45,036 nucleotides of DNA from contig JAFQZQ010000030.1 in the NCBI GenBank assembly GCA_017405845.1, positions 1-45,036 of the forward strand. Reading direction: 5' to 3'. Positions 14,424 through 37,511 of this stretch are shown piece by piece. The position numbers were made by a program, and so were the translations under genes. Position 1 is the first letter of the stretch, and the number at the start of each line of letters is the position of its first letter. This stretch comes from Mogibacterium sp. (lineage in GTDB: Bacteria > Bacillota > Clostridia > Peptostreptococcales > Anaerovoracaceae). The notes below the pieces were generated by a model that did no database searches, was not told the origin of the DNA, and saw nothing but the letters and a program-made list of their open reading frames with translations.

Positions 14424-14429
14424 ACACAC

Positions 14430-14486: not shown

Positions 14487-14499
14487 AGGAGAAACTATC

Positions 14500-21103: not shown

Positions 21104-23917
21104 CTATTTTCTGCCGGTCACTCCGAACGCACTGAGGTCATACCATGCAGGAATGATCTTAGGCATTACTTCATCAGGATCAGCTTCTTCGCAGAAGAGG
21201 CTGTTTCCGAGGAAGAGATTGTTGTTGGAGTATCCTGCTCCGATGATGGTCTCAACAGGCAGCTCTGCCCATGGATCATCAACGCTTGACTTCAGCTCGA
21301 AGTCCTCAACGAATGCAGGTATCCATCCCGTGTACTCGTACTGGCACAGCACCTTGGTGAGGCATGTGCTGAACTTTGAACCGCCGTTCTCATCAGGAAT
21401 CTGATCGAAGTGGAAGTAGTATCCGAAGCCCTTTGTCTCTTTGCCAGGAGCAGGAGCCTGCATGATAAGGTGCATCATCGGATGGTTGTATTCGCCGAGT
21501 CTCAGCTTCATGTTGATGAGCTGTGTACCTCTTCTTGCAACGCTTACATCGACCTTGCCCTTCTCATCATCTTTCCTGATGACGAATTCAGCATCGACCT
21601 TCTTAGGAATTGCAAGTACGTCGCGTCCGAGGGCGGTTGCCATTTCAGCTCCCTGACCTCCGAGTACGAGGCTGATGCAGTAAAGTCCGAGCTGGCCTTT
21701 GTATGTTGCATAAACACCGAGGATCGATTCGTAGTAGTTATCTGCGAATGTAGGCTCGTTGATGTGGTTGGCAGATACATAAACAAGAGGCAGTGCATAT
21801 GGCTCAAGAGGTGCAGGCAGTATCCTTCTGATAGCTTCCGGATTGGTAGCATACAGCATGTATACGCCTTCCTGCTTCTTCATAGCGCAGTCTTTTGCGA
21901 ATGCAGCCATCTTCTCAGGCGGTGTTACGAAGCTTGGCTTAGGAGCTTTGAACAGCTCAGCGCCGACATCATAACCGGTCCTTGTAGCAGGGCCCATGGT
22001 TCCGTCCTGGATAGCTGATCCTACCAGCTTTACACAGATACCTTTTTCCTCGAGGGCAGCCTTGAGGCTCTGGTCAGGCTTGTAGCCAAGCGACATTACT
22101 ACTGCATCGCATGCGATCTTCTTCTGTTCGCCTGTCTCTACGTTCTCGATGCATACGCCGTCAGCCTCGACAGCCTTCAGAGCATTCTTGAACTCGAAAC
22201 CGATATCCATCTTTTTGATCCTGCCCATAACATCGATCACGTTGGCAATGTAGGCTGTAGGAGCAGGGCGGTCCACCATGTCAACCACAGTGACCTTGAT
22301 TCCCTTTTCACCGAGGAATTCAGCAGCTTCAAGACCTGTGAGGCCGGCGCCTATCATGGCGACGTGCTTGCCTGCGAGGTCGACCTTGCCTGTGAGAGCT
22401 TCTTCTACAGTGAATACATTGGCACCGTCAGCACCAGGAATGCTCTTAGGAACGATGCTCTTTGAACCTGTAGCAAGAACAACTGCATCAGGATTCATAG
22501 CAGCGATATCATCAGCTGTTACTTCCTTGCAGAGCTGAACATCCACACCGAGTTTGCAGAGCTGATTGCCCATGTAGTCGATGTAGTTCTGCATCCTTTC
22601 CTTGAGAGGAGGAAGCTTGGCGAGATTGATGGTGCCGCCGAGTTCTTCCTTGCGATCTACAAGAGTCACCTTTACGCCTCTCTCTGCAAGAGTCTTGGCA
22701 GCCTGCATTCCGCCAGGGCCGCCGCCGACTACTACAGCGCACTTTCCGCCTGTAACCGGCTCAAGGTCGCCGAGCTTGAGCTCTCTGCCCATGCGAGGGT
22801 TGACAGCGCACTGGAACGGCTGGAGCTGGGCGTTGATGGTAAGAAGTGTCTCGAAGCAGCGCAGGCAGTTGATGCACTTGTTGAGCTCATCGATGCGGCC
22901 TTCCTGTACTTTGACGCCCCATTCAGGCTCTGCAAGCCATGTTCTTCCGAACTCTGCGAAGTCGTATACGCCTTCTTCCATGAACTGTGCGGCGATCTCA
23001 GGGCTTCTGATTGCGGCTACAGCCATTACCGGGATATTTACTGCATCCTTGACAGCCTGGATCATAGGTCTTCTCCAGCCTTCAGGGAATGATGTAGGCT
23101 CTATTGCCCAGTTGAGTGTTTCATAGATACCGCAGCTTACGTCGATGAAGTCGATGCCGACCTCTTCGAAGTACTTAACGATCTTAACGCCTTCTTCAAG
23201 ATCGATGAACGGCTCAGTCACGCCGTTGTGCGCGAGCATCTCATCTACGGAGAGTCTCATCCCGACCGGATAGTCAGGACCGCACTTCTCGCGGATCTTC
23301 TCAATGATCTCTTTTACAAAACGCATTCTGTTCTCGAAGCTTCCGCCGTACTCATCCTCACGGAAGTTGGTGTAAGGCGAGAGGAACTGTTCGAGAAGAT
23401 ATCCGTGAGCGCAGTGGAGCTCGATACCGTCGATGCCGGCTTTCTGACATCTTACAGCACCATCGCTGAACTGCTCGATCAGCTCAAGCACTTCGTCATG
23501 TGTCAGAGCTCTGGTAGGCTGCTGGGAGTACAGGCATACTCTGTCGGAAGCGGATACACAAGGCTGGCCCCCGATAAGTCTGGATACACCTTCTCTGCCA
23601 GGGTGGTGCAGCTGGATGAATATCTTAGATCCATGCTTATGGATAGCTGCAGCGAGCTTTGAGAGGCCTGCAATGTGGCGGTCCTTTGTGACTGAAAGCT
23701 GTCTGAATGAACCTGCGCCCGTGGCATCATTGACATGGCAGATCTCAGGCATGATCAGTCCGCAGCCGCCCTTGGCTCTCTCTTCGTAGTAGGCGATCAT
23801 CGCATCTCCGCAGGAGCCGTCCAGCTCAGCCAGATTGCTTCCCATCGGGGACATGACGAGCCTGTTCTTGAGCTCAACGTTACCGATCTTTCCTTTCTGG
23901 AATAGAATATCGTACAT
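21104..23917 (-). CDS. Old-Yellow-Enzyme/dienoyl-CoA-reductase-like flavoprotein fused to an acetoacetate-decarboxylase-family domain (fusion 1)
   Basis: A 937-residue protein of two parts. Residues 1-about 655 match the 2,4-dienoyl-CoA reductase/BaiCD/enoate-reductase group: an FMN barrel (IELHCAHGYLLEQFLSPYTN, DEYGGSFENRMRF), four cluster cysteines at 348, 351, 354 and 370 (CX2CX2CX15C), then FAD- and NAD-binding folds (VVVGGGPGGMQAA, AMIGAGLTGLEAAEFLGEKG). These enzymes reduce activated C=C bonds with NAD(P)H. Residues about 683-930 match the acetoacetate decarboxylase family (NPEAIRRILPAPLEPYALPL), including the Pro-Lys-Lys active-site motif (IPKKV, Lys772 and Lys773), where a Schiff base forms in the true decarboxylase. 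The start has TAAGGAGGTTTTT. It is last in a reverse operon. Its twin is at 28,105. Substrate unknown. Confidence 0.88.
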   Translation of the reverse strand: MYDILFQKGKIGNVELKNRLVMSPMGSNLAELDGSCGDAMIAYYEERAKGGCGLIMPEICHVNDATGAGSFRQLSVTKDRHIAGLSKLAAAIHKHGSKIFIQLHHPGREGVSRLIGGQPCVSASDRVCLYSQQPTRALTHDEVLELIEQFSDGAVRCQKAGIDGIELHCAHGYLLEQFLSPYTNFREDEYGGSFENRMRFVKEIIEKIREKCGPDYPVGMRLSVDEMLAHNGVTEPFIDLEEGVKIVKYFEEVGIDFIDVSCGIYETLNWAIEPTSFPEGWRRPMIQAVKDAVNIPVMAVAAIRSPEIAAQFMEEGVYDFAEFGRTWLAEPEWGVKVQEGRIDELNKCINCLRCFETLLTINAQLQPFQCAVNPRMGRELKLGDLEPVTGGKCAVVVGGGPGGMQAAKTLAERGVKVTLVDRKEELGGTINLAKLPPLKERMQNYIDYMGNQLCKLGVDVQLCKEVTADDIAAMNPDAVVLATGSKSIVPKSIPGADGANVFTVEEALTGKVDLAGKHVAMIGAGLTGLEAAEFLGEKGIKVTVVDMVDRPAPTAYIANVIDVMGRIKKMDIGFEFKNALKAVEADGVCIENVETGEQKKIACDAVVMSLGYKPDQSLKAALEEKGICVKLVGSAIQDGTMGPATRTGYDVGAELFKAPKPSFVTPPEKMAAFAKDCAMKKQEGVYMLYATNPEAIRRILPAPLEPYALPLVYVSANHINEPTFADNYYESILGVYATYKGQLGLYCISLVLGGQGAEMATALGRDVLAIPKKVDAEFVIRKDDEKGKVDVSVARRGTQLINMKLRLGEYNHPMMHLIMQAPAPGKETKGFGYYFHFDQIPDENGGSKFSTCLTKVLCQYEYTGWIPAFVEDFELKSSVDDPWAELPVETIIGAGYSNNNLFLGNSLFCEEADPDEVMPKIIPAWYDLSAFGVTGRK

Positions 23918-23944
23918 AAAAACCTCCTTAGTCCCTAGCAGCGC

Positions 23945-24811
23945 TTACTGCTGGATATTATGATCTATTGGAATGAGCTCAGGATTCTTTCTCGCCAGCA
24001 TGTTCTCGCAACGGAGCTGGATATATTTATCATAGTGCTCATGCGTGATGATGTAGAGCTGGTCATCCTCGATAGCTTTGAACACAATTGGTCCTGACTC
24101 ATCGATAGCGCGTCCTGTTTTGATGAAGTAAGCAGCTGCTCCCTGCATTGCCTGGTGGTACTTGCTCCCATAGTATGGATCATCGATCTTGTACTTATCC
24201 TGCTTGTACTCCTCGGAGTGATCCAGATGTGTCTGTATGAATCCAGGGCAGTACGCGCTCATGTGGATGTCGGCACCGGCATCAGCAAGGTCATAGTATA
24301 CAGATTCTGTAAGAGCCAGTGCGCCGAACTTGGATGCCTGATAAGCAGCAGCGCTCTTTGAAGTGAACGTGCCTGCAGCGGAGCATGTGTTGACGATATT
24401 GCAGTGAGTTCCCTGTTTCATCATGATAGGAATGACCTCATGCATGAAGTAGATGTGGGATTTGAGGTTGGTGTCGATGATCCACTCATATTCGATCGGC
24501 GGGACTGCCCATACCGGACCGAATGTGGCTACTCCTGCGTTGTTCATCAGAAGGTCGATCTGTCCGAACTCTTCCATGACTTTTGCAACAACGCATTTAA
24601 CCTGCTCATACTCGGTTACATCGCAAGGGAAGAGCAAAACCTTTTCAGCGCCGAGTCCCTCAGCGAGAGGAGCGATCTCATTAAGAGCATCTTCCATAAT
24701 ATCCACAGCTGCGATCTTCATGCCGCGCTGTGCTGCCTGCTTTACGAATTCCTTTCCGAATCCGTGAGCTGCGCCTGTTATAAGAGCAACTCTGCCTTTA
24801 AAGTCTTTCAT
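23945..24811 (-). CDS. Short-chain dehydrogenase/reductase
   Basis: A 288-residue classical SDR. The cofactor motif TGAAHGFG is at 12-19, NNAG at 90-93, the catalytic serine in NTCSAAG (144), and Tyr157/Lys161 in YQASK. Asp37 after the second strand (AAVDIM) suggests NAD(H) preference. Such enzymes interconvert a hydroxyl and a ketone, for example on steroids. The C-terminal stretch after CPGFIQTHLDHSEEY is longer than usual and is shared with both halves of the SDR fusion at 31,021. The ATG at 24,811 with GGGAGGAAG upstream is preferred to one at 24,844, which overlaps the preceding gene. It lies between the 3-hydroxyacyl-CoA-dehydrogenase-like gene (22 bases) and fusion 1 (27 bases). Confidence 0.9.
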   Translation of the reverse strand: MKDFKGRVALITGAAHGFGKEFVKQAAQRGMKIAAVDIMEDALNEIAPLAEGLGAEKVLLFPCDVTEYEQVKCVVAKVMEEFGQIDLLMNNAGVATFGPVWAVPPIEYEWIIDTNLKSHIYFMHEVIPIMMKQGTHCNIVNTCSAAGTFTSKSAAAYQASKFGALALTESVYYDLADAGADIHMSAYCPGFIQTHLDHSEEYKQDKYKIDDPYYGSKYHQAMQGAAAYFIKTGRAIDESGPIVFKAIEDDQLYIITHEHYDKYIQLRCENMLARKNPELIPIDHNIQQ

Positions 24812-24833
24812 TTCCGATCTTCCTCCCTTTGCA

Positions 24834-25793
24834 TCAATATTCATAGAATCCCTTGCCGAAATTAACGCCTTTTTCGCCGCGGTCGATCTTTTCTTTAAGG
24901 AGTTGACCGATCTTGTATTCAGTTGTTCCTTCCTGCTGTGCAGCCGGCTTCATCTGGTTGATGTTGTAGGCTGTCTCAAGACCGACTATGTCGAGGATCT
25001 GGAACGGTCCTGCAGGAGCTCCTGTTGCGAGCCTCCATGTCAGGTCTATGGTCTCAGGATCGGAAACGCCGTTTGCCCACAGACCCTGAGCTGCGCTGAG
25101 GAAAGGAACAAGCATCGAGTTGAGGATGTAGCCCGGCTGTTCTTTGTGGAGCTGGAGAGGAACCATTCCGATGTCAGCAGCAAAAGCAACTACCTTCTGG
25201 AATATTTCAGGATCCGTTCCGGCGTGGCCCATGATCTCTGCAGTGTTGTTCTTCCAGATGGTGTTAGCGAAATGAAGCGAGCAGTATTTTCCCGGACGTC
25301 CGGTGTACTCAGCAAACATGCTCGGAAGAAGAGTGGAAGAATTAGTGACCAGGATCGTATCCTCATCGAGGAGATCCTTCATTGCATTGTAGACACCGAT
25401 CTTTGCCTCAGGATTCTCGGACATGGACTCAATAACTATGTACGCATCCTTGACAGCTTTTGCCATGTCGAGCTCGATATGCACGTTCTCTGCAAATCTC
25501 TTCCTTGCTTCTTCAGCCATCTCGTCGATCTTTTCGGCAGTGATTCCGTTCCAGTCACGGATCAGTCCCTTCGGATACATGAACGCACCCATAGGATTGC
25601 CGATAAGAGCTTTTGATTTCAGGAGATCTTCCAGCATGAGAGCAGAGTATCTTTCGATCTTCGGCTGTGTCCTTCCGATGGAACTCTCAGACCTGAGCCA
25701 GAACGTAGTGTCAAAACCCTGATACGCACACATGAGACCTATCTGTGTTCCGAGAACACCGCCTCCTGCAACTACAACTTTTTTAACATCCAT
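24834..25793 (-). CDS. 3-hydroxyacyl-CoA-dehydrogenase-like oxidoreductase
   Basis: A 319-residue protein of the 3-hydroxyacyl-CoA dehydrogenase family. The N-terminal Rossmann motif is VVVAGGGVLGTQIG (10-15 in place of GxGxxG). NSSTLLPS, LHFANTIWKNNTAEIMG (usual HFFNP..KLVEI) and PGYILNSMLVP (usual PGFVxNR) follow, and the end has GVNFGKGFYEY. Histidine, glutamate and asparagine positions of the family are kept, but neighbouring residues differ, so it may act on another 3-hydroxy or hydroxy-acid substrate. The ATG follows AAAAGGAGGTATCTGAAA. It is the second gene of the four-gene reverse operon and supplies a beta-oxidation-like oxidation next to the decarboxylase-like domain of fusion 1. 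Confidence 0.87.
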   Translation of the reverse strand: MDVKKVVVAGGGVLGTQIGLMCAYQGFDTTFWLRSESSIGRTQPKIERYSALMLEDLLKSKALIGNPMGAFMYPKGLIRDWNGITAEKIDEMAEEARKRFAENVHIELDMAKAVKDAYIVIESMSENPEAKIGVYNAMKDLLDEDTILVTNSSTLLPSMFAEYTGRPGKYCSLHFANTIWKNNTAEIMGHAGTDPEIFQKVVAFAADIGMVPLQLHKEQPGYILNSMLVPFLSAAQGLWANGVSDPETIDLTWRLATGAPAGPFQILDIVGLETAYNINQMKPAAQQEGTTEYKIGQLLKEKIDRGEKGVNFGKGFYEY

Positions 25794-25817
25794 TTTCAGA
25801 TACCTCCTTTTCAGATA

Positions 25818-26033
25818 TCACTCAGAAACATCAGATACAGTTTGTTCAGGTTCTAACTCTTCCTTTATAGGCTTCCACCAGAGAAAACCTCTCAGAAGGC
25901 ACTGAGGAAGAGCCTCTTTTACAGGGATCTCAGCAGCGGCTGCGACCTTACGTCCTATAAGGAACCATTCTGCCGTGTGCATTGCACAAAGAGCTGCTGC
26001 ACATCCGAATATACATTTTGCGATCGTTTTCAT
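25818..26033 (-). CDS. Small protein with N-terminal hydrophobic segment
   Basis: A 71-residue protein I do not recognise. Residues about 4-26 (IAKCIFGCAAALCAMHTAEW) form a hydrophobic helix that could be a membrane anchor. The rest is short and ends in an acidic tail (EELEPEQTVSDVSE). Glu, Trp and Lys residues in FLWWKPIKEE lie in between. A GAGGTGACAA site precedes the ATG. It is the first gene of the reverse operon, 24 bases before the 3-hydroxyacyl-CoA-dehydrogenase-like gene, and it is preceded by the palindrome at 26,093-26,105. It could anchor or assist the pathway enzymes; no function can be read from sequence. Confidence 0.6.
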   Translation of the reverse strand: MKTIAKCIFGCAAALCAMHTAEWFLIGRKVAAAAEIPVKEALPQCLLRGFLWWKPIKEELEPEQTVSDVSE

Positions 26034-26092
26034 TTGTCACCTCGATTGCCTCAGACAATAACTATTCATCATACCTAATTATGTGTTGATGC

Positions 26093-26105
26093 GTGCATTC
26101 TGCAC
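26093..26105. promoter_or_regulatory. Candidate operator upstream of the reverse catabolic operon
   Basis: GTGCA-TTC-TGCAC is a perfect 5-3-5 inverted repeat, 60 bases upstream of the first gene of the operon. On the reverse strand it overlaps a possible -35 TTGTGC, with CATAAT 18 bases on. A near match, GTGTA-CGA-TGCAC, lies at 27,844-27,856 in front of the PucR gene and fusion 2, and GTCAT-AAC-TGCAC at 26,141-26,153. The regulator could be the PucR protein encoded between them. Confidence 0.45.
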
Positions 26106-26185
26106 AATATTCAGCGTTACCAAAACAAAAAGGAGCAATTGTCATAACTGCACAAAGACTGTATGGACAGCCTTCCGGACATAAG

Positions 26186-26213
26186 AAAAAGGATGCTCCT
26201 GTGGGAAGCATCC
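26186..26213 (-). terminator. Terminator of the PucR-family gene
   Basis: On the reverse strand GGATGCT (26,213-26,207) pairs with AGCATCC (26,197-26,191) across a nine-base loop, followed by five T residues. It lies 33 bases after the PucR stop and separates that gene from the operon downstream. Confidence 0.85.
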
Positions 26214-26245
26214 GTATGGCTTGTTTGTGCATTGCTGTCAGATTT

Positions 26246-27775
26246 TCATTCTGATGCATGGCCTTTGCCGGACCAGGTTCGCTTTTGATTTATTACATTG
26301 CTGATCGCAAATGACAGCCTGAGCCGGAACCCCGTATCCGTATCTGAAAGATCTATATCACACAGATCTTCGATGCGGTGAAGTCTGTATATCACACTGT
26401 TCCTGTGAAGGAAAAGCGCATCTGCTGTCTCCGTGGTGCTGCATGAACATTTGAGGTAAATGTAGAGCGTCTGTACCAGCTGTGTGCCGTTTTTACTGTC
26501 ATAGTCAGACAGTATCGGAAGAGCAGGGTGAAGGTAGCGGTTCAGGTTTTCCGTTTTCTCAACCGTCCTGAACATGGCATATATGCCGTAATCCTCAAAA
26601 GTATAAATGCTGAGATCCGAATCGAGCATCTGCCCCAGCTCAAGCGCATCGTGAGCTTCATCATAATGAGCCTTGAGCGTTGAGATGTCAGAGAAAGGAA
26701 GACTGACGCCAATTTTTGTGACGCATTCCGCCGGGAAGGCGGAAAGAACAAGCCCCACCTTCTGCAGCATGTCACGGCTCCCGATAATGATGGCGCTGCG
26801 GCGCCTGCCTATGACATGACAGCCCGGTATGATGGTCGTCATCAGCTCTGTAAGAGCCCCCTCCTGCGGGAAGCTGGACTGGTTGCCGGTTGCGCGGCAG
26901 TACAGCACCTGCATTTTGGAAGGGAAGCTGAGATTCATGTATGCCTCAGGCAGAGCGGATGCATCAGCACCTATGACCAGATTGTACAGGAACCGGTGAT
27001 AATCGCTTGTCATATAGAGATAGCTTGGAGCATATTTCATAACGGCATAACCGAGAACACCGCTGAGTACCCTGAGCATTTCAACGTGTTCGGCTCTGTA
27101 TGAATCATATCCTTCTATAACGATCAGAAAGCCTATCCATATGTCACGGCAGTAGACCCTGCATGAAAACTTCTGGAAAGGGGATGATGTGCAGGACACC
27201 TCAATAGGCATCATTGTTGAATCCGCCATCTGAACGGACTTGAGCGACCGAACGGCCTTGATGAATTCATAATCACAGTATCCCTGTTCTATATTATGCT
27301 TCCAGAGTTCATCAGTGACAGGGATCTGAGTGGAATAGCTGAGAATGCGGAAGTCCCTGTCAATGAAAACCAGAGAGGCTCCGAATGAGCGTGACGCTAT
27401 GTCTATCAGGGCGTCAACATTGCGGACCAGATCAAGTGTCCGCATCATGGATTCGTAGTAACCTTCTTTGTGAGAGTCAGCGATCAGCTGGGAGGCGCTG
27501 TTGAATACAAAGCCGAAATCGACCTCGGAAACAACGGCAATGCTGTGCCCTTCTGTGGACAGGTCTTCAATGCTTCCGGCATCGGTGATTATGCACTGAG
27601 GCGGGAGTGCTGTGACGCCGTTAAGGTTGTTGGTGAAGTAAAGGATGCTGCTGCTGAAATCCGTCTGGCGAAGGTCCATGAACCTTACCTCGGTTATCTC
27701 TGAAACGGTGTTGTCAGCAATAAGTTCTACAGGGGAAAGAGTCCTGAGATGTTCGATCAGTTCCCGGAATACCAT
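26246..27775 (-). CDS. PucR/CdaR-family transcriptional regulator
   Basis: A 509-residue regulator. The C-terminal helix-turn-helix (about 430-475: CSTTETADALFLHRNSVIYR, then LHRIEDLCDIDLSD) is the PucR HTH_30 type. The centre, about 290-400, resembles the CdaR GGDEF-like domain, and the N-terminal 120 residues a PucR-type sensing domain. PucR-family proteins are usually activators responding to a pathway substrate. The ATG at 27,775 follows GCAGGAGGACACGCGCC. The gene sits between the two catabolic units and is transcribed away from fusion 2, so it is the likely local regulator of both. It ends in its own terminator, so it is not part of the operon that follows it on the same strand. Confidence 0.87.
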   Translation of the reverse strand: MVFRELIEHLRTLSPVELIADNTVSEITEVRFMDLRQTDFSSSILYFTNNLNGVTALPPQCIITDAGSIEDLSTEGHSIAVVSEVDFGFVFNSASQLIADSHKEGYYESMMRTLDLVRNVDALIDIASRSFGASLVFIDRDFRILSYSTQIPVTDELWKHNIEQGYCDYEFIKAVRSLKSVQMADSTMMPIEVSCTSSPFQKFSCRVYCRDIWIGFLIVIEGYDSYRAEHVEMLRVLSGVLGYAVMKYAPSYLYMTSDYHRFLYNLVIGADASALPEAYMNLSFPSKMQVLYCRATGNQSSFPQEGALTELMTTIIPGCHVIGRRRSAIIIGSRDMLQKVGLVLSAFPAECVTKIGVSLPFSDISTLKAHYDEAHDALELGQMLDSDLSIYTFEDYGIYAMFRTVEKTENLNRYLHPALPILSDYDSKNGTQLVQTLYIYLKCSCSTTETADALFLHRNSVIYRLHRIEDLCDIDLSDTDTGFRLRLSFAISNVINQKRTWSGKGHASE

Positions 27776-27843
27776 GGCGCGTGTCCTCCTGCAAATAGTA
27801 GTTGAGTGCTGCAGAAAACGGCGTTCTTATCCATTACACATTA

Positions 27844-27856
27844 GTGTACGATGCAC
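27844..27856. promoter_or_regulatory. Candidate operator in the divergent PucR/fusion 2 intergenic region
   Basis: The 329 bases between the PucR gene and fusion 2 hold no gene. GTGTA-CGA-TGCAC (27,844-27,856) has the same 5-3-5 form as the palindrome at 26,093. Weaker half matches are GTGCA-ATG-TGCCT (27,893-27,905) and ATGCACAA (27,968-27,975). I could not place -35/-10 boxes with confidence. Confidence 0.4.
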
Positions 27857-28104
27857 AATAAGTCAACTGTCGCAGCAACCAATGTTAACTATGTGCAATG
27901 TGCCTAAAGGGCTTAAAACACATTTAACTGAGAGTCTGAGGACGACTCTCCGGAGGCTTTGGGTATTATGCACAAATGTCTTTCATTGTTTTGGATATCC
28001 ATGATAATGCGGCCCGTGACTCCGGCATATAAAATTTATTCAGGATAACTTATATCTCCAGTTTATTATGCATGCATTTTTTTACTGGAACGAAAGGAGA
28101 ATAT

Positions 28105-30921
28105 ATGTACGATAAGCTTTTTGAAAAGGGAAGGATCGGAAACGTTGAGCTTAAGAACAGACTGGTCATGACCCCGATGGGAACCAATCTTGCTAATCTC
28201 GACGGAACACCTGGTGCTGCAATGATCAAGTATTATGAAGACAGAGCAGCCGGTGGATGCGGACTGATCATGCCTGAGATCTGCAGAGTCAATGAGGCTA
28301 CCGGTGCCGGAATGATGAGACAGATCGCTGCTACCAAGGATTATCACATCCAGGGTATCGCAGAACTCGCAGCAGCAGTTCACAAACACGGTTCCAAGAT
28401 CTTCATCCAGCTGCATCATCCCGGCAGAGAAGGTGTTTCTTCGCTGATCGGCGGACAGCCATGCGTTTCGGCTTCCGACAGAGTATGTAAGGTATCACAG
28501 CAGGAGACAAGACCTATGACGATCGATGAGATCCACGAGCTCGTAGGTCAGTTCGGAGATGCTGCTCTCAGATGCAAGAAGGCAGGCGTTGACGGTGTAG
28601 AACTGCACTGCGCCCACGGCTATCTGCTTCAGCAGTTCCTCTCGCCATACACCAACTACAGAGATGATGAGTACGGCGGAAGCTTTGAGAACAGAATGCG
28701 CCTGATCCTTGAGATCATCGCTGACATACGCGAGAAGTGCGGCCCTGACTTCGTACTCGGCTGCAGAGTATCCGTTATCGAGTTCCTCGACAAGCTCGGA
28801 TATGAGGGAGACCAGATCAGACTTGAAGATGGTATCAGGATCGTTAAGTGCATGGAAGAAGCAGGCATCGACTTCGTAGACGTTTCCGACGGTCTCTATG
28901 AGACAGGAAGCTTCTCGGTAGAGCCTATCTCATTCCCTCAGGGATGGAGAAAGCCATTCGTCAAGGCGGTCAAGGATTCGGTCAAGATCCCTGTTATCGC
29001 TGTATCCGTTATCCGTGAGCCTGAAGTTGCACAGAACTTCCTCGAGGAAGGCGTAGTAGACTTCGTCGGAATGGGCAGGACATGGATCGCAGATGCTGAG
29101 TGGGGAAAGAAAGTACAGGAGGGCAGAGTTGATGAGCTCAACAAGTGCATCGCATGCCTCAGATGCTTCGAGTCACTGCTCGGTCTCAACGCTCAGGGAC
29201 TCCCATATGAGTGCGCAGTCAACCCACGTGCATGCAACGAGCTCCGTTACGGAGATCTTGAGCCGGTAGTAGGCGAGCATAAGGCTGTTGTAGTCGGCGG
29301 TGGCCCTGGCGGAATGTATGCAGCTGCAACACTTGCTAAGAGAGGCGTAGACGTAACACTTGTTGACCGTCAGGAAGAGCTTGGCGGAACAGTCAACCTC
29401 GCTAAGAAACCTCCTCGCAAGGAGAGAATGCAGTGGTTCATCGACTATCTCAAGCAGGATATGGAAAAAGCCGGTGTAAAGATCTGCCTCGGCAAGGAAG
29501 TAACTGTAGATGATATCGCAGCAATGGAGCCTGAAGCAGTAGTACTCGCTACCGGTTCGACTTCGATCTTCCCGTCGAAGATCCCTGGCGTAAACGGCGA
29601 TAACGTATTTGCTGTAAACGATGTGCTGAACGGCAAGGTAGACCTTGCAGGCAAGAAGGTAGCCATGATCGGCGCAGGACTCACAGGCCTTGAAGCAGGT
29701 GAGTATCTCGCTGAGACAGGCGCTGAAGTAACATTCGTAGACATGCTCAAGGTAGCTGCTCCTAATGCTTACAGACTGAATGTAGTAGATGTACAGACAA
29801 GGCTTGCTGCACTCGGCGCCAAGTATGAGCTCGGCAATGCTCTCAAGGAGATCACTGCAGACGGCGTCATCGTTGAGAACGTTGATACGAAGGAAGAGAA
29901 GAAGATCGATGCAGACGCAGTTGTACTGTCACTCGGCTATAAGCCTGATCAGTCACTCAAGGCAGGCCTTGAGGAGAAGGGCATCTGCACAAAGGTCATC
30001 GGCTCTGCTGTAGTTGACGGAACTATCGCTCCTGCAACACGCGGCGGATATGAAGTAGGTGCGTCACTGTTCAAGGAAGAGCCTCTCAGCTTCAAGATCG
30101 GCGACGGACAGTTCAAATCATTCTCGAAGATCAGTCACATGCGCGGACAGGAAGGCACATATGTAGCTTACCTGACACAGCCTGAGGCTATCAGAGAGGT
30201 ACTGCCTGAACCACTCGAGCCATTCTCGGTACCGGTTGTAACAGTATCTGCATGCCACATCAAGAACCCTACATTCGCAGACAACTACTATGAGGCTATC
30301 CTCGGTGTATACTGCACATACAAGGGCCAGCTCGGCATGTACACCATCTCGCTCGTACTCGGGGGACAGGGTGCAGAGATGGCTACACAGCTTGGCAGGG
30401 ATAATTCGGCTATTCCTAAGAAGCTTGACGCTGAGTTCGTCATCAGAAAGGACGATGAGACAGGCAAGGTAACTGTAGGTGTCACAAGAAGAGGTACACA
30501 GCTCATCGATCTCGAGATGCAGCTCGGCCAGTATAACCACCCGCTCATGCACGTGCTCTATCAGACACCGGCTCCTGGTGCTGAGACAGCCGGAAGCGGA
30601 TACTACATCCACTTCGACAGACTGCCTGATGAAAACGGTATGTGGAATTTCGCTAATGTATTCCTGATGAGAAATGTTGTTAAGTACAAATATGATGACT
30701 GGAAGCCTGGCTTCGTAACCAAGTTCGAGCTCAAGTCCAGCATTGATGATCCATGGGGCTGCCTGCCGGTCAACACGATCATCGGCGGAGCTTACGCTGA
30801 GAACAATCTGCTCATCACAGCACTCCAGAAACTGGAGGATGTTGATGCAGAATCCACGATGAAGAAGATCCTGCCTGCATGGTATGACAGGACTGCATTC
30901 ATGGAAGTAGGACGCAAGTAG
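28105..30921 (+). CDS. Old-Yellow-Enzyme/dienoyl-CoA-reductase-like flavoprotein fused to an acetoacetate-decarboxylase-family domain (fusion 2)
   Basis: A 938-residue paralogue of fusion 1, colinear with it and clearly similar along the whole length. The FMN barrel (VELHCAHGYLLQQFLSPYTN), cluster cysteines 348, 351, 354 and 370, FAD motif VVVGGGPGGMYAAATLAKRG and NAD motif AMIGAGLTGLEAGEYLAETG are followed by the decarboxylase-family part (PEAIREVLPEPLEPFSVPVV; SAIPKKL with Lys772/Lys773). That both copies keep the same linker and the Lys-Lys pair argues that the fusion is functional and not a chance read-through. The ATG at 28,105 follows GAAAGGAGAATAT; a longer frame from 28,072 is not supported. 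Codon choice is strongly biased, as in highly expressed genes. A hairpin lies between it and the SDR fusion downstream. Confidence 0.88.
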   Translation: MYDKLFEKGRIGNVELKNRLVMTPMGTNLANLDGTPGAAMIKYYEDRAAGGCGLIMPEICRVNEATGAGMMRQIAATKDYHIQGIAELAAAVHKHGSKIFIQLHHPGREGVSSLIGGQPCVSASDRVCKVSQQETRPMTIDEIHELVGQFGDAALRCKKAGVDGVELHCAHGYLLQQFLSPYTNYRDDEYGGSFENRMRLILEIIADIREKCGPDFVLGCRVSVIEFLDKLGYEGDQIRLEDGIRIVKCMEEAGIDFVDVSDGLYETGSFSVEPISFPQGWRKPFVKAVKDSVKIPVIAVSVIREPEVAQNFLEEGVVDFVGMGRTWIADAEWGKKVQEGRVDELNKCIACLRCFESLLGLNAQGLPYECAVNPRACNELRYGDLEPVVGEHKAVVVGGGPGGMYAAATLAKRGVDVTLVDRQEELGGTVNLAKKPPRKERMQWFIDYLKQDMEKAGVKICLGKEVTVDDIAAMEPEAVVLATGSTSIFPSKIPGVNGDNVFAVNDVLNGKVDLAGKKVAMIGAGLTGLEAGEYLAETGAEVTFVDMLKVAAPNAYRLNVVDVQTRLAALGAKYELGNALKEITADGVIVENVDTKEEKKIDADAVVLSLGYKPDQSLKAGLEEKGICTKVIGSAVVDGTIAPATRGGYEVGASLFKEEPLSFKIGDGQFKSFSKISHMRGQEGTYVAYLTQPEAIREVLPEPLEPFSVPVVTVSACHIKNPTFADNYYEAILGVYCTYKGQLGMYTISLVLGGQGAEMATQLGRDNSAIPKKLDAEFVIRKDDETGKVTVGVTRRGTQLIDLEMQLGQYNHPLMHVLYQTPAPGAETAGSGYYIHFDRLPDENGMWNFANVFLMRNVVKYKYDDWKPGFVTKFELKSSIDDPWGCLPVNTIIGGAYAENNLLITALQKLEDVDAESTMKKILPAWYDRTAFMEVGRK

Positions 30922-31020: not shown

Positions 31021-32817
31021 ATGAAAGATTTTAAAGGAAGAGTAGCTATCATTACCGGAGCCGCAAACGGCTTCGGAAGAGAATATGTCAAGGAAGCTGC
31101 CAAACGCGGAATGAAGATCCTGGCAGTGGACATCGAGGGTGATGAGGTGCAGCTGGTAGGACCGCTGGCACAGGATCTCGGCGCTGAAGAGATCGTATGC
31201 ATGCAGGCTGACGTATCTCTGTTTGAGGACACTCAGAAGGTAGTAAAGACCGCCATGGAAAAATGGGGACAGATCGACCTTCTGATCAACAACGCAGGAA
31301 CAGGAAAGGGCGGAACCATTTCAAACCTGCCTCTGAGAGACTGGGAATGGATGATGTACGCCAACGTATTCTCACATATCTACATGATGAGACAGGTGAT
31401 TCCTATCATGATGAAGCAGGGCACACACTGCAACATCCTCAATGTATGCTCGATCGCAGGTCTTATTACAAGCAATGCAATGCCGGGCTACTATTCGACA
31501 AAGCACGCTGCTGTTTCGCTGAGCCGTGCTACACGTAACGAGCTCAAGGAGATCGGAGTAGAGAATATCCATCTCAGCATCTTCTGCCCGGGATTCGTAC
31601 AGACCGACCTGCATCATGCAGAACGTCACAGACCGGCAAGATTCTCGGATCCGACCGATCCGTATTATCAGAGTGAGGAGTTCTTCGCCTCTGAAAAGGC
31701 AAGTGAGTATGTAGTCACAACAGGACTGCCAATCGATGGGTTTGGTGAAACATGCTTCAAGGGCATCGAGAACGATCAGTTCTATATCGTGACACATCCG
31801 CAGTATGATCCGATCATCAGAAAGGAGATCTACGACAGCGTCAACAATGTCAATCCTGATCTCCGCAATGTCGGCAAGCAGCGCAAGGAATATGAGCCGG
31901 GCGACAGGGATCTCACAGGCAGAGTTGCGATAATAACAGGTGCTGCCTTCGGTTTCGGTAAGGAATTCGTCAAGGAAGCTGCCAAGAGAAAGATGAAGAT
32001 CGCTGCGGTAGATATCATGGCTGACGAGCTTGCAAAAATAGAGGACGTCGCAAAGGAATACGGAGCTGATGATATCATGATCATCCCTGCAGACGTATCA
32101 CTGTATGAAGAGACTGAAAAGGTCGTAAATGCAGTAATGGATAAGTGGGGACAGATCGATCTTCTTATGAACAATGCAGGCACATGCACACCTGGACCTG
32201 GATTCCTTATCCCGCTTCAGGACTGGGAGTGGATCTTCCGCACAAACTTTCTGTCACATGTTTACTTCATGAGGCAGGTGATTCCTATCATGAAGAAGCA
32301 GGGCACACACTGCAACATCATGAACACTTGCTCCGTTGCCGGACTCATCACCAGCACAGGCATGGCTGCATACTATACGACAAAGAACGCGGCAGTAGCT
32401 CTGTCGGAATGCATCGAATATGAGATGCAGGAGGCAGGAGCAGACATCCACCTCGGAGTATTCTGCCCTGGTTTCGTACGCACCAGCTTCGACCATGCAG
32501 ATGAGTACCGTCCGCCTAGATACGCTCATGGCGATGATCCGTACTACCAGAGTGAGGCATTCGCAAAGGGTAAAGCAGCAGCCCAGTTCGTGATCAGCAC
32601 AGGCTATCCGATCGAAGGATTCGGCGCAAGAGTCTTTGATGCGATCGAAAAGGATGAGTTCTATGTAGTCACACACCGTGAGTATGATGAGCACATCATT
32701 AAACAGGTCGACCAGACGATCGCAAGGGAAAACCCTGAAGTTGCATCGATATCCGAAGCTATCAAGGATGTGACCAATCTTCCGGGAGGTCCGCTGAGAG
32801 GATACCTGAAAGACTGA
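31021..32817 (+). CDS. Tandem fusion of two short-chain dehydrogenases
   Basis: A 598-residue protein with two complete SDR domains in one chain. Domain 1 (1-about 290) has TGAANGFG at 12-19, NNAG, and Tyr158/Lys161 in YYSTK. Domain 2 (about 298-598) has TGAAFGFG at 306-313, NNAG, and Tyr452/Lys455 in YYTTK. Both halves keep all catalytic residues and both share the long C-terminal segment seen in the single SDR at 23,945 (CPGFVQTDLHHAE, CPGFVRTSFDHAD). Two activities in one chain could oxidise and reduce different hydroxyls, or channel one substrate between sites. The ATG follows GGCAAGGGGGGTATT. It is second in the fusion 2 unit and ends at the terminator at 32,857. Confidence 0.9.
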   Translation: MKDFKGRVAIITGAANGFGREYVKEAAKRGMKILAVDIEGDEVQLVGPLAQDLGAEEIVCMQADVSLFEDTQKVVKTAMEKWGQIDLLINNAGTGKGGTISNLPLRDWEWMMYANVFSHIYMMRQVIPIMMKQGTHCNILNVCSIAGLITSNAMPGYYSTKHAAVSLSRATRNELKEIGVENIHLSIFCPGFVQTDLHHAERHRPARFSDPTDPYYQSEEFFASEKASEYVVTTGLPIDGFGETCFKGIENDQFYIVTHPQYDPIIRKEIYDSVNNVNPDLRNVGKQRKEYEPGDRDLTGRVAIITGAAFGFGKEFVKEAAKRKMKIAAVDIMADELAKIEDVAKEYGADDIMIIPADVSLYEETEKVVNAVMDKWGQIDLLMNNAGTCTPGPGFLIPLQDWEWIFRTNFLSHVYFMRQVIPIMKKQGTHCNIMNTCSVAGLITSTGMAAYYTTKNAAVALSECIEYEMQEAGADIHLGVFCPGFVRTSFDHADEYRPPRYAHGDDPYYQSEAFAKGKAAAQFVISTGYPIEGFGARVFDAIEKDEFYVVTHREYDEHIIKQVDQTIARENPEVASISEAIKDVTNLPGGPLRGYLKD

Positions 32818-32883: not shown

Positions 32884-32942
32884 GTGCATTGATTATGCTA
32901 TTATTAATAAGGAACCAGACAAAACGAAGCAGATGGAGACAT

Positions 32943-33509
32943 GTGGAATTACAGGCTTTAGTAATGCAACAAGAGATGGTTGACGAGTTACAGTTATATA
33001 TTCCTCATACAGAGGATGGCTGGTTTTATGTAAAAATGATGTCTGATCCGGAGACGATGGCTTATAATGCACCTTGGTTTCCTCCTGACGGATGCATTCC
33101 TGCCCCGGAATCTGAATGGCTGGAACTGCAGAAGTCCTGGATCGGGAAAGCACCGGAGCGATTCTACGCTTATCTTCAAAGAAAAAGTGACGGGGTCTTT
33201 GTCGGAGATGTGAATTACCATCATAATTCGGGACAGGATTGGTGTGATATGGGAATCGTGATTTACGCACCGGAAAGAGGAAAAGGGTACGGCAAGCAAG
33301 GGCTACGCCTTTTGCTGGATCGAGTTTTTGAGGTAGATGGAGTAGCCTGTTTACACAATGATTTTGAAGAAACACGCAATGCTGCATATCACATCCACAA
33401 AGCGGTTGGCTTTCGGGAAACCGGGGTCGTTGATGGAATCATTCATTTAGAAATCACCCGGGATGATTATATTGAGGGATGCTCTGAGAAGAGGAATAAT
33501 ACATGGTAA
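32943..33509 (+). CDS. GNAT-family N-acetyltransferase
   Basis: A 188-residue acetyltransferase of the RimJ/RimL-like or broad GNAT type. It has a family core with APERGKGYGKQGLRLLLDRV (acetyl-CoA loop RGKGYG) and NAAYHIHKAVGFRETGVVDG near the end. The substrate is unknown. A longer frame begins at 32,889, but the GTG at 32,943 preceded by GATGGAGACAT fits better. The stop overlaps the next acetyltransferase start (ATGGTAA), so the two are translated together. It begins a cassette of three acetyltransferases and a transporter behind the catabolic cluster. Confidence 0.8.
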   Translation: MELQALVMQQEMVDELQLYIPHTEDGWFYVKMMSDPETMAYNAPWFPPDGCIPAPESEWLELQKSWIGKAPERFYAYLQRKSDGVFVGDVNYHHNSGQDWCDMGIVIYAPERGKGYGKQGLRLLLDRVFEVDGVACLHNDFEETRNAAYHIHKAVGFRETGVVDGIIHLEITRDDYIEGCSEKRNNTW

Positions 33510-33985
33510 AACTTATTGATGTTACCGAAGATAACTGGCTTGATGTAGCCGATCTGAGAGTCAGGGATGATCAGCTCGGCTATGTTGCACCTGCAATAGG
33601 CATACTGGCAAGAGGGTATGTCTATCGTGATTGTAATGCCAAAATCTACGCTTTTGATAATGATGGAGTCATTGTAGGTATCGCGCTGGTCAGAGAGTTT
33701 GATGATGAACCGTTGGGGTATGACCTGCAGCAGTTTATGATCGACAGACATTTCCAGGGCAAAGGATACGGCTCGGAAGCTCTTAAGCTGATATTGGAAG
33801 AGCTTCGCTGTGAAGGTCGTTACGATCATGTAGAAGTCTGCGTGAAAAAAGAAGATACCGCAGCGATAAGTTTGTACGAGAAGCATGGGTTTTCCGACTC
33901 TGGTTATTACGATGATGGTGCACCGGACTCTCTGAATATGATTTGCTGTCTTGTCCCTAAGAGTATCGACAAGATTTGTACTTAG
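33503..33985 (+). CDS. GNAT-family N-acetyltransferase, spermidine/spermine type
   Basis: A 160-residue acetyltransferase similar to Bacillus BltD/PaiA. MIDRHFQGKGYGSEALKLIL holds the acetyl-CoA loop, and ISLYEKHGFSDSGYYDDGAP ends the core. A polyamine substrate is plausible. It overlaps the gene before it by seven bases and has AGAAGAGGAATAATAC as ribosome binding site. It differs in sequence from the other GNAT proteins here, so the group is a mix, not a tandem duplication. Confidence 0.83.
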   Translation: MVKLIDVTEDNWLDVADLRVRDDQLGYVAPAIGILARGYVYRDCNAKIYAFDNDGVIVGIALVREFDDEPLGYDLQQFMIDRHFQGKGYGSEALKLILEELRCEGRYDHVEVCVKKEDTAAISLYEKHGFSDSGYYDDGAPDSLNMICCLVPKSIDKICT

Positions 33986-34080
33986 GGTGGCAATATGATT
34001 ACAGTATTTTATCGCAAAGAATCAGGAGATATTGTTATTGATTATTCCACTCTTGAGTAATTGCAATTGCCAGTTTAGCA

Positions 34081-34593
34081 ATGGACTATAAGATCAGGAC
34101 GTTGAAAACTGAAGAGGTTCCGTTGCTGGAAGAGTTTCTGTATGAGGCTATATTTATTCCTGCCGGAATGGAGAAGCCCCCAAGAGAGATCGTTAAACAG
34201 CCGGAACTGGAGGTGTATATCAGGGATTTCGGCTGCAAAAAAGATGATCATGCCCTTGTTGCAGAGGCAAAAAACAAAATCATAGGTGCAGTCTGGGTGC
34301 GGATCATGGATGATTACGGTCATATAAATGACGAAACTCCTTCTCTTGCAATATCTGTGCTTAATGAATATAGAGGCAATGGAGTCGGAACGGCTCTGAT
34401 GGAAAAGATGCTGGATCATCTTAGCATGAGCGGTTACACTTGCGTATCACTGTCAGTCCACAAAGCAAATTACGCAGCAAAAATGTATCATAACCTCGGA
34501 TTCAAAGTGATAAGTGAAAATGCTGAAGATTGTATCATGGTACATAAGCTAGATCATAAAAAATGCTCTGAGAAGAGGGATACAGAAGCATAA
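34081..34593 (+). CDS. GNAT-family N-acetyltransferase
   Basis: A 170-residue acetyltransferase. The acetyl-CoA loop is NEYRGNGVGTALMEKML, followed by VSLSVHKANYAAKMYHNLGF, both typical. The N-terminal part (KIRTLKTEEVPLLEEFLYEA) is standard. Substrate unknown. The ATG follows GCCAGTTTAGCA, a poor ribosome binding site. The C-terminal KKCSEKRD is coded by a repeat (ATGCTCTGAGAAGAGG, 34,563-34,578) also found at the end of the GNAT gene at 32,943, which suggests shared ancestry of the gene borders. Confidence 0.8.
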   Translation: MDYKIRTLKTEEVPLLEEFLYEAIFIPAGMEKPPREIVKQPELEVYIRDFGCKKDDHALVAEAKNKIIGAVWVRIMDDYGHINDETPSLAISVLNEYRGNGVGTALMEKMLDHLSMSGYTCVSLSVHKANYAAKMYHNLGFKVISENAEDCIMVHKLDHKKCSEKRDTEA

Positions 34594-34643
34594 CCTTCTT
34601 CATCGCCTAATATCAGATCAGATAATGACTTTTTGAGGTAGAA

Positions 34644-35810
34644 ATGTATTCTTTATTACTGGCAGTAATATATCTGATATTTATTAGTCTTGGATTACCG
34701 GATTCACTTCTTGGCTCCGGATGGCCGACGATGCAGGTGGCTTTTGGAGTGCCGTCTTCATATGCCGGGTATGTATCGATGGCAATATCTTTTATGACGA
34801 TTATTTCAGCACTGATAAGCCCGAGGATGATAAGAAAGATCCATACTAAGTGGATCGTGATTGCATCAATAATGCTGACAGTCATGGGACTTATAGGTTT
34901 TTCCTTCTCAAGATCTTATGCGATGCTGTTCCTTTTTGTTGTGCCTTATGGACTCGGTGCCGGTGCTATAGATGCATCGGTCAATCATTATGTGGCGAAT
35001 CATTATTCGTCCTCGGTCATGAATTTCTTGCATTGCTTCTATGGTGTAGGCGCCGTGATCAGCCCCTGCATCATGGCGCAGGCGCTTAAGGCTGCACGAT
35101 GGAATGAGGGATATAGGTGGACAGCGTATATTCAGATGGGGATCCTGTTGGTGTGTGTTCTGTCCCTACCTTTGTGGAAGCAGAATGAAGCGGCAGCCGA
35201 AGAAAAGAACAGGGACAGCGCCGGTATCAGAGAGACCCTAAAAGTGCCGGGTGTTGTGCTGACTCTGGTCGCTTTCTTTGCCTACTGCTCAGGTGAGGCA
35301 ACCTGCTTTCTGTGGACGCCTAGCTATTTTGCCGGGACAAGGGACGGATTGAGCGATGAAACCATTGCGTCGTTTGGCTCTCTGATATTCGGAGGATTGA
35401 TGCTGGGCAGACTGATCTCCGGATTCATTTCAAATCGACTTGGCGATAGGCGACTTATACGTATAGGGATCACCATTGAGCTGATCGGTATCCTTTTAGT
35501 GATCCTTCCCGCGAAGAGTTATGTTATCGCAGCAATTGGATTCGTTGTCATCGGAGCGGGAATGGGACCTGTATATCCTGCCATTCGGCATATGGCCCCT
35601 GCAAACTTCGGCAAGAAGTACAGCGCTGCTGTGATAGGATTACAGATGGCTTCTGCGTATGTAGGAAGCACATTCATGCCGATGGTGTTTGGGCATCTGC
35701 AGCAGCACATCGGGATCGGTATTATGCCTTCGTATCTGTTATTGTTTGCATTGATAAATATTGGTCTGTTGGAAAGAGCCTACATTGTTTTGAAGAAGCA
35801 AAACAGATAA
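34644..35810 (+). CDS. Major facilitator superfamily transporter
   Basis: A 388-residue membrane protein with about 12 predicted helices. It shows the fold of the sugar/fucose-permease-like MFS branch: LGLPDSLLGSGWPTMQVAFG at the start, YGLGAGAIDASVNHYVANHY in the fifth-helix region, and FGGLMLGRLISGFISNRLGD as the second-half cytoplasmic loop motif. The substrate could be a sugar, drug or pathway compound; its place after the GNAT cassette gives no decision. The ATG follows TTTTTGAGGTAGAA. It is followed by a gene-free stretch with two attachment remnants. Confidence 0.85.
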   Translation: MYSLLLAVIYLIFISLGLPDSLLGSGWPTMQVAFGVPSSYAGYVSMAISFMTIISALISPRMIRKIHTKWIVIASIMLTVMGLIGFSFSRSYAMLFLFVVPYGLGAGAIDASVNHYVANHYSSSVMNFLHCFYGVGAVISPCIMAQALKAARWNEGYRWTAYIQMGILLVCVLSLPLWKQNEAAAEEKNRDSAGIRETLKVPGVVLTLVAFFAYCSGEATCFLWTPSYFAGTRDGLSDETIASFGSLIFGGLMLGRLISGFISNRLGDRRLIRIGITIELIGILLVILPAKSYVIAAIGFVVIGAGMGPVYPAIRHMAPANFGKKYSAAVIGLQMASAYVGSTFMPMVFGHLQQHIGIGIMPSYLLLFALINIGLLERAYIVLKKQNR

Positions 35811-36254: not shown

Positions 36255-37397
36255 TCATTCATCTTTCACTGGTTTACCGCCGTTATAGTATTCTGCTTCA
36301 AATTGAACTGGCGTTTTGTAATGCAGTGTTTTGTGTGGTCTATCTTCGTTATAGAATCTCATGTATTCTGCTACAGACTCTTTGAACTCTCTTTCTGAAC
36401 GATATACACGCCTGTATAACTCCTCTTGTTTCAGGCTTTTGAAGAAAGCTTCTGCCACAGCATTATCTGTAGGTGTATGAGGCTTTGAGTAAGATTGCAC
36501 CACATTGTGATTATCCAGGCAGATACCGAAAGCTTTAGATCTGTAATTGGAGCCACGGTCGCTATGGAAAATGAGTTCTTCTTTTGGACGTCTGTAATTA
36601 TAGGCCGAAAGGAAGGCCTTTTTAATGAGAGCGGTGCTGTTTCTATAGCCGATGCTGTATGAGAGTATGCGCCTTGAAAAGAGATCCAGTATGATGCAAA
36701 TGAAATAATAGTGATCATTGATTTTCAAGGTTGTAACATCACTGACCCAGATTTCGTTAGGAGCCTTGGGATTAAAACTTTTTTGAACGAGATTATGTGT
36801 ATGCTGCTGCTCTTTCTTGTACAGGGCCTTTGCTTCCTGCCTGATGCAAGCCAGTCCCATTTCTATCATCAACTCTTTAACCAACTCAGGTGTTGTTCTT
36901 ATCCCTCGATCGCGGAGAACAGCTGTAATCTTTGGGGCACCGTAGCGCTGCTGACTTTCATTAAAAATCTGAGCAATAGCTTCTTTTATTTCAACACGCC
37001 TTATGTTAAACCATGCATCGTCACCTTTGCTGCGAAGCATATGGTTATAATATGTGCCTCTTGGAACTTTCAATGCCTCACATAAGACGTGCACATTATA
37101 ATCACCACCGGATAGTCGCTCTAACTCCTTCAGTTTTATCTTGAGTGGATCATTTGCACTGCACTGTGATTCCTGCAGTACGGATACAACAGATTCGAGG
37201 TGTTTGGATCTGTTGATCAGGAATCTGAAATTGCGCTTGGTAAAGTCCAGACTGTCATACCCAATATTTTTCTGGATATGGAAGTACACGGTGCTTCGTG
37301 GTATTCCCAGTTTCTTAGCAATGGCTTGTCCGGATTTCTCTTCTTTCAGATACATATCCATAATTCGGTCGATAGTATTTTCGTCATACTTTGCCAC
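36255..37397 (-). CDS. IS3-family transposase (second, apparently intact)
   Basis: A 380-residue transposase. The N-terminal part has a helix-turn-helix (KKLGIPRSTVYFHIQKNIGY), the middle the HTH_21 segment (QQRYGAPKITAVLRDRGI), and the C-terminal integrase core the DDE residues in WVSDVTTLKI, FHSDRGSNYRS and DNAVAEAFFKSLKQEE. The typical end FYNEDRPHKTLHYKTPVQFE is present, unlike in the frameshifted one at 13,116. The two share a family but are not close copies. The start is a GTG at 37,397 with CAGGAGGTTTATT; a longer frame to 37,493 would run through the small RNA. Clear terminal repeats could not be fixed. It sits directly upstream of the second Abi-associated RNA and points away from it. 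Confidence 0.85.
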   Translation of the reverse strand: MAKYDENTIDRIMDMYLKEEKSGQAIAKKLGIPRSTVYFHIQKNIGYDSLDFTKRNFRFLINRSKHLESVVSVLQESQCSANDPLKIKLKELERLSGGDYNVHVLCEALKVPRGTYYNHMLRSKGDDAWFNIRRVEIKEAIAQIFNESQQRYGAPKITAVLRDRGIRTTPELVKELMIEMGLACIRQEAKALYKKEQQHTHNLVQKSFNPKAPNEIWVSDVTTLKINDHYYFICIILDLFSRRILSYSIGYRNSTALIKKAFLSAYNYRRPKEELIFHSDRGSNYRSKAFGICLDNHNVVQSYSKPHTPTDNAVAEAFFKSLKQEELYRRVYRSEREFKESVAEYMRFYNEDRPHKTLHYKTPVQFEAEYYNGGKPVKDE

Positions 37398-37418
37398 AAT
37401 AAACCTCCTGAAACGTTC

Positions 37419-37447
37419 TTGATTTGCTTTGATGAATATCCTATAAT
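37419..37447 (+). promoter_or_regulatory. Promoter of the second Abi-associated small RNA
   Basis: TTGATT (37,419-37,424) and TATAAT (37,442-37,447) are separated by 17 bases, the same layout as at 14,395-14,423. It begins 22 bases from the start codon of the divergent transposase, so that insertion left it whole. Confidence 0.65.
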
Positions 37448-37453
37448 ACAAAC

Positions 37454-37511
37454 ATGATAAGGATCCTCGCACGCCTCTTAACAATGCGTACAATGCGGGG
37501 GTTGTTTTTTT
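37454..37511 (+). ncRNA. Predicted small structured RNA, copy 2 (orphan candidate RNA antitoxin)
   Basis: Nearly the same RNA as at 14,430-14,486, with three base changes. CCTCGCA (37,465-37,471) pairs with TGCGGGG (37,494-37,500), the middle T now facing G, so the stem is kept. Seven T residues (37,505-37,511) end it. The protein gene that should follow is broken after 34 codons, while promoter, RNA and terminator remain. That fits an RNA with value of its own, for example protecting against the toxin of copy 1. Confidence 0.65.

Follow-up and report, generated by a model that had tools for sequence, protein, structure and literature searches.

What reaction is carried out by a protein in which a flavin-dependent reductase of the Old Yellow Enzyme (OYE) type is joined, within one chain, to a domain of the acetoacetate decarboxylase (ADC) family? 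This question is raised by a 45,036-nucleotide stretch of Mogibacterium sp. DNA (contig JAFQZQ010000030.1; the whole stretch is called the window hereafter), which carries two genes of this design. The features of the two genes are given below.

21104..23917, minus strand: fusion copy 1, 937 aa, with P771-K772-K773 and the same Pfam domains as copy 2
28105..30921, plus strand: fusion copy 2, 938 aa, an OYE-type Fe-S flavoenzyme plus an ADC-family domain (PF00724, PF07992, PF06314)
28105..30069, plus strand: OYE half of copy 2 (residues 1-655), comprising the flavin mononucleotide (FMN) barrel with H168/H171/Y173, Cys348/351/354/370, and flavin adenine dinucleotide (FAD) and NAD parts
30085..30918, plus strand: ADC-like domain of copy 2 (residues 661-938)
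30418..30423, plus strand: K772-K773 codons of copy 2, aligned with ADC Lys115-Lys116

The reading tentatively favoured here is that a ketone or aldehyde bearing a beta-substituent would form a Schiff base with K772, that the beta-group, likeliest water, would be eliminated, and that the resulting enone would be reduced by the flavin half.

Both fusion open reading frames were found to be real and intact, with the same OYE plus ADC design. Two proteins with an FMN barrel, Fe-S cysteines and FAD and NAD folds followed by a C-terminal domain had been predicted from the DNA, and this was confirmed by the reading frames, the Pfam matches and the four Fe-S cysteines at 348, 351, 354 and 370 of both copies. 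Pfam matched Oxidored_FMN (E 3e-73), Pyr_redox_2 (1e-30 or better) and ADC PF06314 (E 5e-35 and 7e-35; 121.5 and 121.0 bits against a gathering cut-off of 29.8) in both copies, all far over the cut-offs, in accordance with the expected joining of an OYE-type reductase to an ADC-family domain; the Pro-Lys-Lys motif was likewise located at 771-773 in both. The identity between the copies was 68% for the OYE half (447/655) and 60% for the ADC half (170/282). The earliest in-frame ATG of copy 2 lies at 28072 and gives 949 aa (28072-30921), while the ATG at 28105, which is preceded by AAAGGAGAATAT, gives 938 aa; the ATG of the 937-residue copy 1 is preceded by AAGGAGGTTTTT. The AF2 model of full-length copy 2 showed a pLDDT of 85.1 and a pTM of 0.73.

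The residues of the ADC half were analysed in an alignment of 122 fusions, comprising 120 listed of 323 homologues and both window copies, with some rows truncated at the N-terminus. The names Arg29, Glu61, Glu76, Lys115 and Lys116 follow the ADC numbering, in agreement with the 3bh2 alignment; both Arg29 and Glu61 are important for decarboxylation in ADC. K772, K773, E730 and R765 were invariant in 122/122 rows, with K772 and K773 at the places of Lys115 and Lys116 and E730 at the place of Glu76, and residue 771 was P in 116 rows and A in the other 6. This alignment supports the proposal that Lys772 is the putative Schiff-base lysine. The place of Arg29 was occupied by Gln (Q682) and that of Glu61 by Ser (S715) in all 122 fusions, as against R and E, respectively, in 4/4 stand-alone ADCs of the same class. 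The solved enzymes 4zbo, 4jm3 and 5upb carry G, G and A at the Arg29 place. The retention of the lysine and of Glu76 together with the absence of Arg and Glu argues for a Schiff-base chemistry other than decarboxylation in the ADC half.

The original prediction, in which enone reduction by the flavin half is followed by decarboxylation of a beta-keto acid in the ADC half, is thus weakened by this residue comparison. In its favour, ADC is the nearest solved family in sequence, and Lys115/116 and Glu76 are kept; in view of the Q and S found in every aligned fusion, decarboxylation after reduction is not supported and is regarded as unlikely. Another Schiff-base step on the same ketone, which had been offered beside it, comes closer to the residues and to the operons described below, although such a step would be likelier before the reduction than after it. 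The ADC half might also be catalytically idle, serving substrate binding or acting as an oligomer scaffold only. Its C-terminal position would suit this, as would four near-identical proteins of 734 aa (P0025, P0027, P0029 and P0031; one lineage, 99% alike or more) which have lost residues 345-547 of copy 2, a stretch with the Fe-S cysteines and the greater part of the FAD region, and retained the FMN and ADC parts. An idle domain was rejected as very improbable because K772, K773 and E730 are invariant in 122/122 rows; the same residue set is also kept in unfused homologues.

A structural match of the C-terminal part to the ADC fold, on which the earlier proposal had depended, was found in the predicted structure of the ADC-like domain modelled separately. 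The search with the full-length model gave no ADC entry among the best 50 rows because the OYE part filled the list, and the structure alignment used 52 of the 122 rows. The known ADCs (EC 4.1.1.4; 3bh2, 3bgt, 3c8w) are alike in fold and in the equivalents of Lys115/116 and Glu76, and they are unlike the window fusions in Arg29 and Glu61, in the flavoenzyme fusion and in having 18% identity over the structural alignment. The predicted fold also matched the aldolase-dehydratases 6eej, 4zbo and 4zbt and MppR (4jm3), and the absence of Arg29 is common to the domain and those enzymes. Swit_4259 (5upb) is presumably not a decarboxylase. These matches bring in an aldolase or aldolase-dehydratase reading, in which the ADC-like domain would couple an aldehyde with pyruvate or another ketone, or cleave the coupled product, and the flavin half would reduce the enone. 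An enone acid product would suit an OYE, and MppR is described in PMC7820114 as an aldolase condensing pyruvate with an aldehyde. However, the domain profile gave no sequence match to the aldolase-dehydratases (4zbo, 6eej), MppR or Swit_4259, which form a separate clade and have no flavoenzyme fusion. Among the annotated neighbours, which are a part of all, no conserved source of pyruvate or aldehyde was seen, bar one glycyl-radical case. The aldolase reading is considered rather unlikely, though not negligible.

The OYE half showed the layout of 2,4-dienoyl-CoA reductase, with an FMN barrel, four Fe-S cysteines and an FAD/NAD domain; compared with this enzyme (1ps9), with 2-naphthoyl-CoA reductase (6qkg) and with BaiCD, the window fusions add the ADC domain. 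Y173 aligns with a tyrosine of 1ps9 which is a key catalytic residue according to PMC12238238. His168 and His171 replace other residues of 1ps9, and Tyr265 stands at a 1ps9 histidine. H168, H171 and Y173 were kept in 118/122 rows (gap in 4) and Y265 in 122/122. Paired histidines like these bind the carbonyl oxygen in YqjM-type OYEs. By analogy with this pair, which H168/H171 resemble, an enone or enal is therefore the likely substrate of the OYE half.

The genes adjoining the two fusions in the window are as follows.

23945..24844, minus strand: short-chain dehydrogenase/reductase (SDR), 299 aa, PF00106, best solved match 5ig2, 27 bp upstream of copy 1
24834..25793, minus strand: 3-hydroxyacyl-CoA-dehydrogenase-type protein, 319 aa, PF02737/PF00725, 11-bp overlap with the SDR gene
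26246..27775, minus strand: PucR-type regulator, 509 aa, PF13556, between the copies and divergent to copy 2
31021..32817, plus strand: tandem SDR, 598 aa, two adh_short domains (PF00106 in two stretches), 99 bp after copy 2

In named genome records 43 related loci were located, and the best segments were 97-99% identical in Mogibacterium metagenome-assembled genomes from goat and sheep gut. Where the flank was sufficient, a same-strand SDR gene followed the fusion in 26/35 loci and a divergent PucR gene stood upstream in 25/33; these neighbourhood counts are not independent because several loci are near-copies. The 319-aa dehydrogenase scored 381.9 with NF006143 (cut-off 312) and had the diketoreductase 4dyd as its best solved match. 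This likeness speaks for the decarboxylase reading, as such an enzyme could supply or use a beta-keto acid, but the gene was present in only 8 of the 43 loci, some with short flanks. A second fusion was also seen in 8/43. Wider neighbours were phospholipase-type and DUF genes after the SDR gene in close Mogibacterium relatives, and elsewhere a pyridoxal-phosphate decarboxylase, a serine-dehydratase subunit, cobalt uptake and an ABC transporter; the ten neighbours scanned for a substrate clue had no common theme.

The unfused relatives gave the same set of partners. An unfused ADC (of genome G190) was compared with 40 genomes of one bacterial family, and relatives were found in 10, five fused and five unfused; the search of 67 genomes of that order gave no carriers beyond the same ten. 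All five fused cases had a divergent PucR relative and an SDR gene after the fusion, and all five unfused cases had a same-strand OYE gene with four cysteines near the ADC gene. The order was OYE-SDR-ADC in L078 and L079, which are near-copies, and OYE-ADC-tandem SDR in L080 and L081, the tandem SDR being confirmed by Pfam. In all five unfused ADCs the lysine pair and Glu76 were kept, the Arg29 place was Q and the Glu61 place was Y. The repetition of the SDR, ADC-like and OYE set suggests one shared path.

The fifth unfused locus (L063:5909-12562) has the order glycyl-radical enzyme-activase-ADC-OYE. With the HpfG model its radical enzyme reached 986.7 bits, short of the cut-off of 1000 (next model 668.7), and with the HpfH model its activase reached 419.6 bits, short of the cut-off of 500. 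HpfG converts dihydroxypropanesulfonate to 3-sulfopropionaldehyde according to PMC11489063. Like the HpfG/HpfH dihydroxypropanesulfonate dehydratase operons described there, L063 has an enzyme and activase of this kind, here at its start, and the ADC and OYE genes come next in place of HpfD/HpfX. This gene row is possibly a new branch of sulfonate or polyol breakdown. The radical-enzyme version comes from one genome, because the 67 genomes held no more carriers.

The unfused operons also contain a membrane-type protein of 322-343 aa, 35-96% alike, whose gene precedes the OYE gene in four of them. No Pfam or NCBIfam match was obtained at the thresholds used for those of L078, L080 and L081. The coordinates are given below.

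L078:5461-6489, L079:5335-6345, L080:12371-13339 and L081:301-1332: membrane-type proteins

The partner genes also bear on the reading that the ADC half is a double-bond isomerase acting through a dienamine, which would bring a beta,gamma bond into conjugation after oxidation by the SDR and before reduction by the flavin. The path from pregnenolone to epipregnanolone is analogous, the SDR is a frequent neighbour, and the same three-step logic is found in the OYE-3beta-hydroxysteroid dehydrogenase (HSDH)/isomerase fusion of PMC12238238. This protein of gut Clostridia, an OYE-type 5beta-reductase with a C-terminal 3beta-HSDH/delta5-4 isomerase, has a similar OYE layout and a second enzyme acting on the same ketone, and is the nearest described design that was found. 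It differs in that its C-terminal domain is a Rossmann domain, whereas the window fusions have PF06314 there and the SDR as a separate gene. The OYE half moreover stayed far under the BaiCD equivalog NF041087 (465.1 and 454.8 bits; cut-off 825), no steroid-specific gene was seen among the annotated neighbours, and the glycyl-radical operon suits elimination better, leaving the isomerase reading quite improbable. The BaiCD, bilirubin-reductase and mycofactocin OYE families were set aside, as no NCBIfam model reached its cut-off for the fusions among the best 25 of 115 and of 103 matches. The open-access literature on the combination and on the ADC family and mechanism gave no OYE-ADC fusion in titles and abstract openings among the matches listed, and within this scope no earlier description of the fusion came up.

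For the favoured reading of elimination followed by reduction, we infer all the chemical steps of the path. The SDR, or the glycyl-radical dehydratase in one unfused operon, would make a beta-hydroxy or otherwise beta-substituted carbonyl compound. K772 would then form an iminium, whose deprotonation would give an enamine from which the beta-group departs. The enone would go on to the FMN site, there to be held at its carbonyl by H168/H171 and protonated by Y173, with electrons passing from NAD(P)H to FAD, the Fe-S cluster and FMN. Of the two SDR domains, one would serve the oxidation at the start, and the other may reduce the saturated ketone at the end. Overall the path would amount to an anaerobic reductive dehydroxylation, serving as an electron sink or for the breakdown of plant or host compounds, and with both halves in one chain no reactive enone would be set free in the cell. 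The more specific claim of a one-chain reductive eliminase, in which an ADC-fold lysine-enamine domain expels the beta-group and passes the enone or enal to the fused flavin reductase, is conceivable though somewhat unlikely. On this claim the group expelled would be hydroxyl or, in the glycyl-radical operon, sulfite, turning 3-sulfopropionaldehyde into acrolein.

Several observations weigh against elimination followed by reduction. The domain is closer in sequence to the true ADCs than to the aldolase-dehydratases, and in the profile search of solved chains, carried up to E 10, only 3bgt, 3bh2 and 3c8w matched among the ADC superfamily. The ADC-domain tree placed 4zbo, 4jm3 and 5upb with P0182 in a clade (100/97) apart from that of the window. 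The effect of Q for Arg29 and S for Glu61 on activity is presumed from the roles of these residues in ADC, and the Arg29 place carries M instead of Q in P0163, a fragment of a more distant homologue. Nor is the H168/H171/Y173 set restricted to ADC-linked OYEs: it was counted in 9/23 ADC-unlinked ones from the same genomes, and residues 104 and 265 are different in four of the five unfused OYEs (L078-L081). The downstream SDR gene is missing in 9/35 loci and the PucR gene in 8/33, and the glycyl-radical neighbour occurs in 1/10 carriers among the 67 genomes. The 3-hydroxyacyl-CoA-type dehydrogenase beside copy 1 could yield a beta-keto acid, the substrate of a decarboxylase. We know of no ADC-fold enzyme with elimination from a beta-hydroxyketone as its sole reaction.

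The spread of the fusion was analysed with the ADC part of copy 2 as query, which gave 323 proteins out of 1875 candidates. The candidates were limited to 0.55-1.75 times the query length, so the similar length of the homologues is partly by construction. PF06314 and PF00724 were read by eye in all 120 homologues listed, most having 934-973 aa, and with 323 homologues the fusion is more than chance. The names among the matches listed were 'acetoacetate decarboxylase family protein' (several), 'oxidoreductase', '2,4-dienoyl-CoA reductase' and 'FAD-dependent oxidoreductase', and the hosts included Mogibacterium, Clostridium cadaveris, Hespellia, Anaerocolumna, Robinsoniella and Vallitalea. Mogibacterium timidum, Baileyella intestinalis and Hespellia stercorisuis are among the carriers available in culture. 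A second homologue search scored 7997 candidates and gave 61 matches, many of them contig-end pieces, of which 9 were aligned, including P0163. Overall the fusion is not common: among 391 evenly sampled genomes of the class, PF06314 was present in 10 and the fused frame in 2 (the window's own genome and one other). Within the genus, 4 of 11 other genomes matched over the cut-off, two of them at contig ends.

The tree of the OYE half, built by a quick method and carrying long-branch warnings, placed the 11 fused rows in one clade (100) and four unfused rows in another (100). The OYE of L063 grouped with an OYE-SDR fusion encoded in the genome from which the window comes. The 'other' rows of this tree were 23 of 30 loci, 7 being omitted as fused or unfused rows already included, and two matches without a locus were left out. 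The ADC-domain tree, also with long-branch warnings, grouped 17 Q-type rows at 91/82, and the fused rows with P0165 at 100/99; the stand-alone relative L064, outside the clade, has T at the Arg29 place. The stand-alone P0165 may be a secondary split, because it is nested within the fused clade. The trees are consistent with a single fusion event and a long joint inheritance of both halves, without proving either.

The OYE-SDR fusion just mentioned (L116:5199-8234) is a second kind of OYE fusion, with 1011 aa, an OYE-FAD part and a C-terminal SDR domain; it adjoins two 2-hydroxyglutaryl-CoA-dehydratase-D-type genes, a tocopherol-cyclase-type gene and an iron alcohol dehydrogenase. In the window itself, the tandem SDR gene is followed by three GNAT acetyltransferase genes and an MFS transporter in a row (32889-35810), a protein with integrase-core (transposase-type) domains (36255-37493) and a TMEM164-family protein (38647-39414). 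At 12687-15378 lies a tmRNA gene (tag AKTNNNFALAA), with a gene of the Abi_2 family no more than 1.5 kb further on.

The database name 'acetoacetate decarboxylase family protein' is likely wrong about the chemistry of these proteins. If elimination followed by reduction is true, the fusion would offer an enzyme pair that can be tested for the oxygen-free removal of hydroxyl or other groups from ketones, together with a design from nature for the channelling of reactive enones, and the unfused operons point to the SDR, and once to a radical dehydratase, as partners. The reductive eliminase, if true, would to our knowledge be the first case of a Schiff-base lyase and an ene-reductase sharing a single chain. 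It would provide gut anaerobes with a CoA-free reductive dehydroxylation or desulfonation which is metal-free at the elimination step.

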